Part shown: piece after piece, positions 9,621 through 60,171 of the stretch
Numbering within the stretch: position 1 is the first letter of the stretch
How the letters are laid out: every line of letters starts with the position of its first letter
DNA from: Gammaproteobacteria bacterium
GTDB taxonomy: Bacteria; Pseudomonadota; Gammaproteobacteria; Pseudomonadales; Azotimanducaceae
Assembly (NCBI GenBank): GCA_009846005.1
Contig: VXYL01000007.1
Span: 1 to 64,000, forward strand
Reading direction: 5' to 3'
Length of the DNA: 64,000 nt
Notes under the pieces: model-generated
What the model saw: only the letters and a program-made list of their open reading frames with translations
Databases searched by the model: none
What the model was told of the DNA's origin: nothing
Position numbers and translations under genes: made by a program

Positions 9621-9699
9621 GTAGGGGACGGGCTTGCCCCGTCCCGTGCGAAAGGCCCCGTTGTTGCCAATGCGGGCCGGGACAAGCCCGGCCCCTACG
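9621..9699. repeat. Intergenic hairpin repeat pair (locus 3)
   Basis: Forward unit 9621-9645 (stem GGGACGGG/CCCGTCCC, loop CTTGC). Inverted unit 9674-9699 with stem GGGCCGGG/CCCGGCCC and loop ACAAG, a compensated change. The inverted unit's TAG (complement of 9695-9697) is the stop codon of the UGSC-family gene on the minus strand. Confidence 0.85.
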
Positions 9700-10213
9700 C
9701 GGTCAACGCTGCCACTACCGCGTCAACGCACTCGTCCGCCTTGGCGCGCATTTCGTCGTCCGTCGCGTCTTGGATGGGATGCGCGACGAACACGCGGCGC
9801 GCGTCGTTCATGCCGAGCGCCTCGGCCTGGGCCGTGGCCGCGTCGACGAACTCCGAAGAAGCGATGCTGACCGAGGGAACTCCCTGGATCTCGAACCATA
9901 CCGTGTCATGCAAACTGCACGTGGTACAGGAGCCTCAGTCGGCTAGCGCCTCGATCACGAAGTCGTTGGCGTCGCGGATGTCGCGCCGCAGCGCGTCCGG
10001 CGCCGGCTTGGTGAACGTCGGCTTCGCATAGCGGTTGACGGTGACATCGGGCAAGCGCTCGGCAAGCTGCGTCTCGAGCCGGTCGAGCAGGATGTTGCCG
10101 CGCGGCTTGGAGATGTCGAGCAGGGCAACGTTGCCGTGGACGGCGCCCGTGCGCGGCGTCACGGTACGCGCCACCGGCACCCGCTCGTCCGTGGGGTCAA
10201 GGATGGTGGTCAT
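9695..10213 (-). CDS. UGSC-family selenoprotein (in-frame UGA read as selenocysteine)
   Basis: A 172-residue protein if the UGA at complement(9935..9937) is decoded as selenocysteine. Residues 1-92 run from MTTILDPTDERVPVARTV to DANDFVIEALAD. Then UGA-GGC-TCC-TGT gives U93-G-S-C96, followed without frame change by TTCSLHDTVWFEIQGVPSVS and a complete C-terminus ending at TAG. This reproduces the motif after which I recall the 'UGSC family (seleno)protein' being named. The start has a strong AAGGAGG ribosome binding site. A bulged hairpin follows the UGA. It is the last gene of an RraA-like/thioredoxin-like/UGSC operon. The U-x-x-C motif and partner suggest a redox or detoxification role. If UGA were a stop, two unrelated fragments would have to be invoked. 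Confidence 0.85.
9899..9926 (-). promoter_or_regulatory. Candidate SECIS-like hairpin of the UGSC gene
   Basis: In the mRNA, starting nine bases after the UGA: UACC (9926-9923) can pair with GGUA (9902-9899). A two-base bulge, GUG/CAC and two more pairs lie above, closed by a loop containing GUUUGCA about 20-26 bases from the UGA. The position suits a bacterial SECIS, but the stem is bulged and weak. Confidence 0.35.
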
Positions 10214-56541: not shown

Positions 56542-57687
56542 ATGCCGATGATTCTCAACGAAGAGCAGAACATGCTGAAGGACAGCGCGAAGGACTTCTG
56601 CTCCAACAGCGCGCCGATCGAGGCGCTGCGCAAGCTGCGCGACGACGACAACGCCGACGGCTTCGATCGCGACACCTGGTCGCAGATGGTGGAACTCGGC
56701 TGGGCCGGCATTCCGTTCCCGGAGGAACACGGCGGTTTGGCGTTCGGCTACAAGGGTCTTGGCGTCGTCACCGAAGAGACCGGGCGAACGTTGACCGCGA
56801 GCCCCCTCTACGCGACGGTCTGGCTAGGCGGCACGGTGTTAAACATCGGCGGCAGCGATGCCCAGAAGGCCGAACTCCTGCCCAAGGTCGCGGCGGGGGA
56901 ACTGCTGCTGGCCCTGGCGTTGGAGGAATCCCATAAGCACAACCCCTACGGGATCGCGGCCACGGCCACGAAGACCGACGACGGCTACGCGATCACGGGC
57001 TCGAAGAAGTTTGTCCTCGACGGCCATGTCGCCGACAAGCTGATCGTCGCGGCACGCACATCGGGATCGGCGGGCGACCGCCATGGCATCTCGCTGTTCC
57101 TGGTCGATCGCAACGCCGACGGCGTGTCCGTGACGCGCACCCGGATGGTCGACAGCCGCAATGCGGCGAACATCGAGCTGGCCGACGTTGCCGTGAGTGC
57201 AGACGCCCTCGTCGGCGACGAAGGGCAGGGCGCGGACGTGCTCGACCCGGCTCTGGACATCGCCCGCATCGGCATCTGCGCCGAAATGCTCGGCGCCACC
57301 CAGGAGTGTTTCGACCGCACCGTCCAGTACCTGAAGGACCGCGAGCAGTTCGGTGTGCCGATCGGTTCCTTCCAGGCCCTGAAACACCGGGCGGCGAACA
57401 TGTTCTGCGAGATCGAACTGTCGAAGTCGTGTGTGCTCGAGGCGCTGACGGCCCTCGACGAGGAGCGAGATGCTACGGAGATCGCCAAGCTCGCGAGCCT
57501 CACCAAGGCCAAGGTCGGGGAGACCTTCCACACCGTCTCCCGGGAGGGCATCCAGATGCACGGCGGCATCGGCATGACCGACGAGTTCGATATCGGCTTC
57601 TTCATCAAGCGCGCCGCGGTGACCGAGCAGACGTTCGGGGACGTGAACTTCCACCGCAACCGCTACGGCGAACTCGAGGGGTATTGA
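56542..57687 (+). CDS. Acyl-CoA dehydrogenase
   Basis: A 381-residue flavoenzyme. N-terminal helical domain MILNEEQNMLKDSAKDF and WSQMVELGWAGIPFPEEHGGLAFG; central domain LALALEESHKHNPYGI and GSKKFVLDGHVADKLIVAAR; C-terminal domain YLKDREQFGVPIGSFQALKHRAANM and GIQMHGGIGMTDEFDIGFFIKRA. AGGGGG lies 8-10 bases before ATG. Its stop is 34 bases before the selenoprotein-type gene, so they may form an operon. Acyl chain preference is not evident. Confidence 0.92.
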   Translation: MPMILNEEQNMLKDSAKDFCSNSAPIEALRKLRDDDNADGFDRDTWSQMVELGWAGIPFPEEHGGLAFGYKGLGVVTEETGRTLTASPLYATVWLGGTVLNIGGSDAQKAELLPKVAAGELLLALALEESHKHNPYGIAATATKTDDGYAITGSKKFVLDGHVADKLIVAARTSGSAGDRHGISLFLVDRNADGVSVTRTRMVDSRNAANIELADVAVSADALVGDEGQGADVLDPALDIARIGICAEMLGATQECFDRTVQYLKDREQFGVPIGSFQALKHRAANMFCEIELSKSCVLEALTALDEERDATEIAKLASLTKAKVGETFHTVSREGIQMHGGIGMTDEFDIGFFIKRAAVTEQTFGDVNFHRNRYGELEGY

Positions 57688-57721
57688 TCTCGAGGTGCTT
57701 GGGGAGGTGGCGACGGGCGCG

Positions 57722-58585
57722 ATGGCGGAACCCATCGGCTACATGGAGCGCACCCGGCGCTACTACGAGGCCCAGGGCTTCGAGAAGGCGTACGCCTGGG
57801 CCAATTTCGACGACATACCGTTCACGCCGCTACGGCGACCCGCCTCGGAATCGACATTGGTCCTCATCACGACCATGGCGCTCTACGACCGCGGTGCGTC
57901 GGATGTGCGCCACGTGGCGTCCTGTTCGACCCTCGAGCCGCCGGCCCGGCTATACGGTGACGACCTGTCCTGGGACCGGACCGCCACCCACCTCAATGAC
58001 CGCGAATCGTACTTCCCGATCAACATGCTCCATGAACTCGTGCGCCGGAGACGCATCGGCGCGTTAGCGGAACGGTTCCATTGCGCACCGACGGAGTACA
58101 GCCAACGCCGGACCCGGCGGACCGATGCGCCCGAGATCCTCAAACGCTGCCGCGAGGATGGCGCCGACATCGCCTTGCTGGTGCCGATCTGACCGGTGTG
58201 CCACCAGACCGTGAGTCTGGTAGCCAGGCACTTGGAGTCCAACGGCATCCCGACGGTGATCCTCGGGGCCGCCCGCGACATCGTGACGCACTGCGGGGTG
58301 CCTCGGTTCGCGTTCGTCGACTTTCCCCTGGGCAATCCCAGCGGCAAACCGTACGACCGCGACATGCAGGCGGCCATCGCGACCGCTGCCGTCGATCTCT
58401 TCGAGACGGCCTCCGAACCAGGCACCGTCGTCAACCTGCCCTACCGATGGAGCGACGACGAGTCGTGGCGGGACGGCTACTTCCAGGTGAGCGAGGCGAA
58501 CATCGACGCCTTGCGCCGGGCGGGCGAGGAACGCCGGGCCAACCGGGCACACCTACGGGCAACGGGGCAGGTTCGTACGGAATAG
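57722..58585 (+). CDS. Glycine/sarcosine/betaine reductase selenoprotein B (GrdB/PrdB)-like protein with in-frame UGA
   Basis: A 287-residue protein if UGA at 58190-58192 is read as selenocysteine. Residues 1-156 run from MAEPIGYMERTRRYYEAQGF to GADIALLVPI. Then U157-P-V-C160-H-Q-T follows in the same frame, continuing VARHLESNGIPTVILGAARD and FPLGNPSGKPYDRDMQ to a normal stop at 58585. U-P-V-C-H-Q-T is the redox motif I associate with the GrdB/PrdB-like (seleno)protein family. A strong hairpin follows the UGA. Aerobic organisms carry distant homologues whose reaction is not known; the acyl-CoA dehydrogenase upstream is a likely functional neighbour. Start uncertain (57695 GTG also possible). 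Confidence 0.83.
58198..58231 (+). promoter_or_regulatory. Predicted bacterial SECIS hairpin of the UPVC selenoprotein gene
   Basis: Beginning six bases after the UGA: outer stem GTGCC/GGCAC (58198-58202 with 58227-58231), a five-base 3' bulge, inner perfect 7-bp stem ACCAGAC/GTCTGGT (58203-58209 with 58215-58221), and apical loop CGTGA (58210-58214). The loop lies 17 bases after the UGA and contains GU, as in known bacterial SECIS elements bound by SelB. Confidence 0.65.
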
Positions 58586-58694: not shown

Positions 58695-58949
58695 ATGACT
58701 GACTACTTGGGAGAGCTAGGTGACAATCTGCGCCGGGCTCGGAAGCGGCGTTTTTCCAACGATGATCTGGCGGCCTTCGCCTTGCGCATCGGCGTAAGCC
58801 GGTCGACCTTGCAGAAGATGGAGAAGGGCGACCTCACCGTCGCGATGGGAAGGTACTACCGGGCGGCGGAGATCCTTGGCCTCGCCGAAACGTTCGGCGC
58901 CCTCCTGCGCCAAGAGGAGAGCCTGTTCGATGACCCGCGCCCGCTTTGA
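58695..58949 (+). CDS. hipB: HipB-like XRE-family antitoxin/repressor
   Basis: An 84-residue helix-turn-helix protein: LGELGDNLRRARKRR, then ALRIGVSRSTLQKMEKGDLTVAMGRYYRAAEILGL. ATG at 58695 is chosen because an upstream TTG (58677) lies inside the operator. It overlaps hipA by 20 bases, as usual for hipBA. Predicted to repress the operon through the two inverted repeats upstream and to neutralise HipA. Confidence 0.85.
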   Translation: MTDYLGELGDNLRRARKRRFSNDDLAAFALRIGVSRSTLQKMEKGDLTVAMGRYYRAAEILGLAETFGALLRQEESLFDDPRPL

Positions 58950-60171
58950 CATCCACCTGGACAGTACCGTCACGGAGGTTTTGCAGGCGGCCGAGTGCGT
59001 GATCGAGGAAGAAGAGGGCTTGGTCCGCCGAGTGGACTTTCGGTACACGCCCGGCTACGTCGAGAATCCAAGCGCATTCCCCTTGGACCCGAAGCGTCTG
59101 ACCCTTGGCCACGGTGAGACTCGGTTTGCCTGCGCGGGCGGCCTCCCGGGATTCGTCGACGACTACTTGCCGGATGCCTGGGGTCGCAAGGTCCTTACCG
59201 CGCTGGCCTGGCATCGCCATGGAAAGCGACTCAACCTCAACAGTGCGATCGACCTTCTCGCCCTGATTCCGCCTGGCAGTCGCATCGGCGCACTGTGCTT
59301 CACGCCCGTCGGCGACGCCGCCCGCTTCGAGCCCGGCGTGCCGATCTCGGCGCTGGCGGAAGCGGAGCGGGCAGCGGTCCAAGTGGATGCATTGGATTGG
59401 GAGTCGGTAGAACCCAACGAGGTCGGACTCACCCACCTCGCGGCGGCGGCAAGCAGCGTCGGAGGTGCCAGGCCCAAATCATTGGTTACGGACGGGGAGA
59501 CCCACTACCTGGCGAAGTTCAACCGACTGTCAGGCGACCCTTACAACAACGCGCGTGTGGAAATCGCCTGCCTGGAAATGGCACGGGCGGCTGGTCTTGA
59601 CGTGGCGCAGGGCAGGGTCGTCGAGGGCGTCAACGGTCGCGAGGTTCTGCTGCTCGAGCGTTTCGACATTGCCGCCGACGGGCATCGCCATCACTTGGTG
59701 ACCGTCAATGCACTCCTCAAGGAAAAATCTAGCCAACGCGACTCCGGGTTGCCCTTCCGCTACGACGATGTCGCCGAGTCGTTGTCGCGGTATTCGGTTG
59801 CCATCAAGACGGATCTCGAGCAACTGGTAAGGCTGGCGCTCTTCAACCGGGTCATAAACAACACCGACGACCATGCCCGGAACTTCAGCCTGATCCACCG
59901 GGGCGACGGCTATCGCCTGTCGCCGGCGTACGACTTGGTACCGAGCCTGGCCGTCGGCGAGTACCACGCCGCGGCTTTCGGCTACGATCCCCGGCCACCC
60001 CGGCCCAGCGAAGTACCGCGAATCGGCAAGGTTTTCGGCTTGAGCAAACCGAGAATACATGCATGCGCTGAAGAGGTTCTGACCGCCCTCGACGGCTGGC
60101 CCCGGTTCGCCGACGAAGCGGGGCTAGGCGAGTCCGAGAGCAAACGAATCGCGGATCGATTCAACCCGTAG
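58930..60171 (+). CDS. hipA: HipA-like serine/threonine kinase toxin
   Basis: A 413-residue HipA-family kinase. N-terminal FRYTPGYVENPSAFPLDPKRL; GGLPGFVDDYLPDAWGRKVL (family F-x-x-L-L-P-D-x-W-G motif). ATP site SVGGARPKSLVTDGETHYLAKF (P-loop and Lys); catalytic NNTDDHARNFSLI (D and N) and metal aspartate in YRLSPAYDLVPS. The usual catalytic residues are present. The E. coli enzyme phosphorylates GltX; the target here is unknown. The stop TAG comes from the next hairpin repeat. Confidence 0.9.
   Translation: MTRARFDIHLDSTVTEVLQAAECVIEEEEGLVRRVDFRYTPGYVENPSAFPLDPKRLTLGHGETRFACAGGLPGFVDDYLPDAWGRKVLTALAWHRHGKRLNLNSAIDLLALIPPGSRIGALCFTPVGDAARFEPGVPISALAEAERAAVQVDALDWESVEPNEVGLTHLAAAASSVGGARPKSLVTDGETHYLAKFNRLSGDPYNNARVEIACLEMARAAGLDVAQGRVVEGVNGREVLLLERFDIAADGHRHHLVTVNALLKEKSSQRDSGLPFRYDDVAESLSRYSVAIKTDLEQLVRLALFNRVINNTDDHARNFSLIHRGDGYRLSPAYDLVPSLAVGEYHAAAFGYDPRPPRPSEVPRIGKVFGLSKPRIHACAEEVLTALDGWPRFADEAGLGESESKRIADRFNP

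Follow-up and report, generated by a model that had tools for sequence, protein, structure and literature searches.

Comparative evidence for a selenoprotein gene encoding a probably stand-alone PrdB-like protein in a gammaproteobacterium

The locus and its surroundings

The window, i.e. the whole 64-kb stretch of DNA that was analysed, holds a gene predicted to encode a PrdB-like selenoprotein (Table 1). Its UGA codon shares the frame of the ATG at 57722 and of the terminal TAG, with 156 codons before it and 130 after. The first-pass annotation had placed this UGA in frame with P-V-C-H-Q-T, as we find, and its count of 128 further codons was slightly off. Orthologues from five genomes of the same genus are 88-91% identical and align from residue 1 or 2.

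Table 1. Coordinates of the features discussed, in positions of the window
Feature	Position	Strand	Remarks
Acyl-CoA dehydrogenase gene	56542..57687	+	ends 34 nt upstream of the selenoprotein gene
GGAGGT, likely ribosome-binding site	57703..57708	+	13 nt 5′ of ATG 57722; sequence
PrdB-like selenoprotein gene	57722..58585	+	287 residues, Sec157, stop TAG 58583-58585
UGA codon predicted to be read as selenocysteine (U157, motif U-P-V-C-H-Q-T)	58190..58192	+	
Outer 5-bp stem, 58198-58202 with 58227-58231, predicted fold	58198..58231	+	not conserved among homologues
Core SECIS-type hairpin, ACCAGAC / loop CGUGA / GUCUGGU, loop 17 nt after the UGA	58203..58221	+	covariation, synonymous-codon constraint, decay in Cys homologues
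Companion selenoprotein gene, UGSC family (NF041046, PF24696), UGA 9937-9935	9695..10213	-	172 residues

The acyl-CoA dehydrogenase gene preceding the selenoprotein gene is kept (>93% identical) in just five close relatives besides the window's genome; at another locus (L131), a distant acyl-CoA dehydrogenase (26% identical) ends 56 nt upstream of the PrdB-like gene. When neighbours were clustered by BLASTP across 80 named loci and the window, using a crude ORF picker that splits Sec genes, no conserved neighbour emerged, the commonest cluster being found in 12 loci, and an operon-based role was dropped for this reason. Just after the selenoprotein gene, a HipA-like protein is encoded at 58876-60171 (+), and the small ORF preceding it resembles by eye a HipB-type helix-turn-helix protein; the two are a possible toxin-antitoxin pair. 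The segment 46421-56387 holds in series two AcrB-type efflux pumps, a HlyD-type protein and a TonB-dependent receptor.

The companion gene of Table 1 belongs to the UGSC family, its product scoring 168.7 bits against an NF041046 cut-off of 125. It is the only other UxxC candidate of the window with family support, among that part of the candidates which was tested against families. In an order sample made of the window's genome and 57 relatives (58 genomes), the UGSC family gave 75 matches in 36 genomes, 74 of them with TGA; three, all with TGA, lie in the window's genome. The UGSC and the PrdB-like families occur together in 35 of the 58. The first-pass annotation had regarded two genes with the UGA "at the same place" as supporting each other. 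If its first gene is the UGSC one, the shared UxxC motif holds, but the two do not belong to the same family: both have UxxC followed by a G[IV]P stretch, Sec-coded in the window, while UGSC is a separate curated family. Alignment of the two profiles (hhalign probability 14.6%, E 0.0018) only hints at a common origin, and a search of UGSC against solved structures gave no sequence match.

Reading of the UGA codon and the hairpin that follows it

The window's genome is a draft of 4.96 Mb in 106 contigs, 97% complete. The Sec genes on which the first-pass reading depended are all present in it: SelA, SelB and SelD each score above their own cut-off, and tRNA-Sec is matched at 69.5 bits (cut-off 47), by a gene that ARAGORN names tRNA-SeC with anticodon tca (UCA). 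This machinery counts towards assigning the gene to the selenoproteins. Among seven weaker tRNA-Sec matches fetched as loci, six were other tRNAs and one was no tRNA. In a control set of 14 named genomes, the tRNA-Sec model passed its cut-off in 5, compared to 1 for SelA, 2 for SelB and 2 for SelD, meaning that the tRNA-Sec cut-off alone is not strict. Among the loci examined, selA and selB adjoin a PrdB-like Sec gene only at L158 (genome G057), and a selD-like match lies beside the gene at L079; we conclude that there is no general linkage of the PrdB-like gene to the SelA, SelB and SelD genes. At L158 (G057:C2:18000-24500), the Sec gene reads UPVCNQT and stands next to selA/selB as if the whole were one cassette.

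Homologues were found in 37 of the 58 order genomes. Each of the 97 matches contains one TGA, two of them having a TAG in addition, and in those of the 97 that were fetched as loci, the TGA is at the Sec position. The window's genome has a second family member on contig C60, 36% identical and also with one TGA. Of 299 genomes drawn from the phylum, 12 have the gene: besides that of the window, one has TGA (G193) and ten lack an internal stop, all ten having a Cys codon at the Sec position. In the named collection, at least 571 relatives were confirmed and the best 80 were kept; 75 of these have TGA and 5 Cys at the aligned Sec position, and their record titles name Gamma-, Alpha-, Beta- and 'Delta'-proteobacteria, Myxococcales, Actinomycetes, Acidimicrobiia, Chloroflexota, SAR324 and Binatia. 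Thirty pattern matches in viral contigs included no relative. Taken over all fetched loci, 132 distinct places were counted: TGA stands at 113, a Cys codon at 18, and GTC at one, whose row is probably misaligned. Homologues that span the UGA in a single frame, the other point on which the first-pass reading hung, exist, some with Cys in place of Sec in the alignments, and conservation of the UGA at a single position with Cys in some homologues is a further mark of a selenoprotein.

The distribution of SelA followed that of the gene. SelA was found in 36 of the 37 order genomes with the gene, compared to 4 of the 21 without (Fisher test 5e-10, descent uncorrected); G031, 91% complete, has Sec genes, yet no SelA at E 1e-50. 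A second sample of 38 genomes comprised 15 Cys-bearing members and 23 Sec-bearing ones, the latter being G193 and the genomes of 22 of the 75 named loci with Sec. SelA was present in 22 of the Sec-bearing and 3 of the Cys-bearing genomes (2e-6, likewise uncorrected for descent), and the Sec-bearing genome of L112 had none at 1e-40. On a tree of 131 rows and a PrdB outgroup, built by a quick method (46 of the 129 inner branches are poorly supported, and two long branches are joined at the root), the Sec/Cys pattern needs at least 5 changes, 3 of which are forced by well-supported branches.

The hairpin contains an exact 7-bp stem (58203-58209 with 58215-58221) closing the loop 58210-58214. It had been described in the first pass as a two-part stem: the perfect 7 bp, the CGUGA loop and its distance from the UGA stand, and the outer 5 bp do fold in this sequence but are not conserved, outer pairing in the predicted folds differing among the 31 genes folded. 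Pair counts were made over 111 Sec genes, two TGA rows containing N being left out. The seven stem pairs were formed on average 6.66 times in these genes, versus 5.06 in the 18 Cys genes, and the outermost of the seven was the least kept (86 of 111). Pairing in the Sec genes amounted to 95%, and fell to 15-49% when one arm was slid by 1-4 bases; changes on both sides of a pair occupied 58 cells in the true register, versus at most 7 when slid. The three top covarying column pairs are all stem pairs. Codon choice shows a constraint as well: of the 91 Sec genes with serine at codon 8, 89 write it as AGT, against a background of about 6% in the same genes, versus 3 of 10 Cys genes. A full six-pair core was found in 99 of the 113 Sec genes, 14 lacking one or more core pairs, and in none of the 18 Cys genes; this comparison amounts to 3-5 independent Sec/Cys contrasts on the tree, none of them opposite, a number that falls short of significance when descent is taken into account. 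Finally, of the 14 genes with Ser six residues after Sec, 10 have Gly as the eighth residue, versus 4 of 97 with Thr at the sixth. Because the swap in the ten Ser/Gly genes turns an A-U pair into U-A, the hairpin RNA seems to couple these two amino acids. Selection on the RNA directly 3′ of the UGA again fits a selenoprotein, and these comparisons support the view that the hairpin behaves as a SECIS element.

Could the UGA nevertheless be an ordinary stop, belonging to a pseudogene, produced by a sequencing error, or separating two adjacent small ORFs, the second starting at GTG 58196? Looked at in this sequence alone, the question is a fair one. Long open frames separated by a TGA are frequent in this GC-rich window (16 frames have a TGA with >150 open codons before it and >128 after), and the 46-nt fold has a z score of just -2.1, 4 of 200 shuffles being equally good, so the single-sequence observation is only moderately improbable. 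It is the comparison of homologues that settles the Sec reading: an ordinary stop does not account for the TGA in every match from 37 genomes, nor for its alignment in several phyla with only Cys as replacement among the best 80 named loci, nor for invariant residues that flank it on either side in 45 aligned sequences. Codon-position GC is also similar before and after the UGA. We consider the probability of an ordinary stop practically negligible, and that UGA 58190-58192 is read as Sec virtually certain on this comparative evidence.

Relation to PrdB and GrdB

The best named model for the protein is TIGR04483 (PrdB), with an E value of 1e-25. It is matched by all 45 aligned family members, but the 90.4 bits obtained with the protein of the window lie below the equivalog cut-off of 300. 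At E 0.01, PF07355 is matched by 16 of the 45 members, though not by this protein, and the GrdB models TIGR01917 and TIGR01918 (cut-offs 602 and 65) gave 25 bits. Calling the protein GrdB/PrdB-like, as was done at first, was right as to relationship, and does not extend to membership of the PrdB or GrdB equivalogs.

With a PrdB encoded near prdA, homology covers residues 34-243 (28.7% identity, 216 aligned columns), and Sec in UxxC occupies the aligned position. The first 33 and the last 44 residues remain unaligned, whereas the unaligned ends of PrdB itself are 22 and 4 residues long; the N-terminus differs and the C-terminus is longer here. The motif differs too, being UGTCHR in two PrdB proteins and UP[VI]CHQ here. 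Likeness to GrdB (TIGR01918, PF07355) is a distant homology over residues 90-236 (E 3e-7 to 8e-6, four models), with about 435 residues in GrdB versus 287 here. Within the family, P158, V159, C160, H161 and Q162 are invariant in the 45 aligned sequences; residue 159 is V or I in a wider set of 17, and single rows outside the 45 vary at 161-162 (L158, L160). Other invariant residues of the 45 include Y7, Y15, W26, D93, R195, P202-L203-G204 and W249. Searched against solved structures, the family profile gave only chance-level sequence matches (best E 0.46). For the PrdB of Terrisporobacter (P0002; L184 2200-2925), residues 132-197 around UxxC gave weak L-asparaginase matches (best E 0.01), a possible lead to the fold.

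The pyruvoyl partner expected of a PrdB, the PrdA/GrdE subunit (PF09338), was not found in the window's genome, where a partner could be missing from the 106-contig draft. In the order sample, PF09338 was matched in 1 of the 58 genomes (G030), and it gave no match in 36 of the 37 genomes with a PrdB-like gene. In G030 (L185, G030:C195), the GrdE match adjoins a Sec-coded gene reading UGTCTRC, unlike UP[VI]CHQ; we call it GrdB-like from this motif and from 23% identity to the protein of the window. The UPVCHQ-type genes of G030 lie on a different contig from this pair. A search for GrdA (PF04723) in the window's genome gave two sub-cut-off matches at chance level (E 0.35 and 0.89).

That the gene encodes a genuine PrdB subunit of D-proline reductase is suggested by its best model, matched throughout the family, by the identity to a PrdB encoded near prdA, and by papers on marine metagenomes, which in the available excerpts class UxxC proteins as PrdB (PMC2398784, PMC1088965). 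Yet the score is far from the equivalog cut-off, PrdA/GrdE was not found in nearly all gene-bearing genomes searched, this one included, the motif is not that of the two PrdB proteins, and the unaligned ends contain invariant residues (Y7, Y15 and W26 in the first 33, W249 in the last 44), all of which makes a true PrdB very improbable. Were the product instead a generic redox protein of the thiol/selenol type, such as a peroxidase or a disulfide reductase, UxxC would serve as a thioredoxin-like redox pair. The motif is indeed present, and the GOS paper, in its available part, lists PrdB with thiol oxidoreductase and Trx-fold homologues (PMC2398784). One of the 45 members also weakly matches a thioredoxin model (E 0.008). 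The homology, however, is to PrdB and GrdB, whose Sec presumably attacks a carbon atom of the substrate, and the invariant Y7, W26, D93, R195 and P202-L203-G204, far from UxxC, suggest a specific substrate pocket; we hold a generic redox protein to be unlikely. That the product is a PrdB-like stand-alone protein is quite likely, and the whole explanation, a selenoprotein gene at 57722-58585 whose PrdB-like product stands alone and is of the UP[VI]CHQ type, very likely. As a selenoprotein gene it is well supported, and standard reading truncates genes of this kind at the UGA.

Possible chemistry and meaning of the finding

During translation, the ribosome would read UGA 58190 as Sec, the downstream hairpin recruiting SelB and tRNA-Sec. 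In glycine and D-proline reductase, the B-subunit Sec presumably attacks a substrate that a pyruvoyl group holds. In the present protein, Sec157 may be a selenolate nucleophile that attacks a small electrophilic substrate; Cys160 would resolve the Se adduct or a Se-S intermediate, and cellular thiols would reset the Sec157/Cys160 pair. The outcome would be reductive cleavage of a C-X bond with no need for the pyruvoyl activation on which D-proline and glycine reductase rely, and the stand-alone form could take substrates already electrophilic without activation. We propose this specific chemistry tentatively, as possible rather than probable.

The glycine and D-proline reductase complexes are described in the accessible part of PMC13188914. 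For a GrdB-like Sec protein of Synergistota, which comes with a GrdE-like partner, cleavage of the C-F bond of fluoroacetate has been proposed (excerpts of PMC10838667), and this proposal suggests that proteins of the GrdB-like type are not restricted to amino acids. A broader idea, which we regard as rather doubtful, is that stand-alone, pyruvoyl-free PrdB-type selenoenzymes are widespread, with as many as six copies in a genome, act by direct selenolate attack on electrophilic small molecules (e.g. in reductive dehalogenation or detoxification) and are misnamed 'proline reductase'. In the accessible portions of open-licence papers, no functional study of the stand-alone PrdB-like type was found.

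Selenoproteins of this sort have been counted before: 42 PrdB-type UxxC selenoproteins in the Sargasso Sea (PMC1088965, in the part available) and, in the GOS data, 235 Sec and 110 Cys forms of 'PrdB' and 255 UGSC proteins (PMC2398784, likewise). Judged from these descriptions, the present family, which shares UxxC, marine abundance and the occurrence of both Sec and Cys forms, is probably the 'PrdB' of those metagenomes, and the PrdB-like and UGSC genes most likely both belong to known kinds. What is new here is the comparative evidence for the gene at 57722-58585 and its failure to qualify for the proline reductase equivalog. A match to PrdB in genomes of this sort therefore does not necessarily imply proline reduction. 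If the stand-alone reading is true, the selenium chemistry of clostridial amino-acid reductases would have been reused in a family that occurs in proteobacteria, Myxococcota, Actinomycetota and Chloroflexota, and the natural Cys homologues, such as that of Bradyrhizobium pachyrhizi (L098), would allow the substrate to be sought by ordinary biochemistry.
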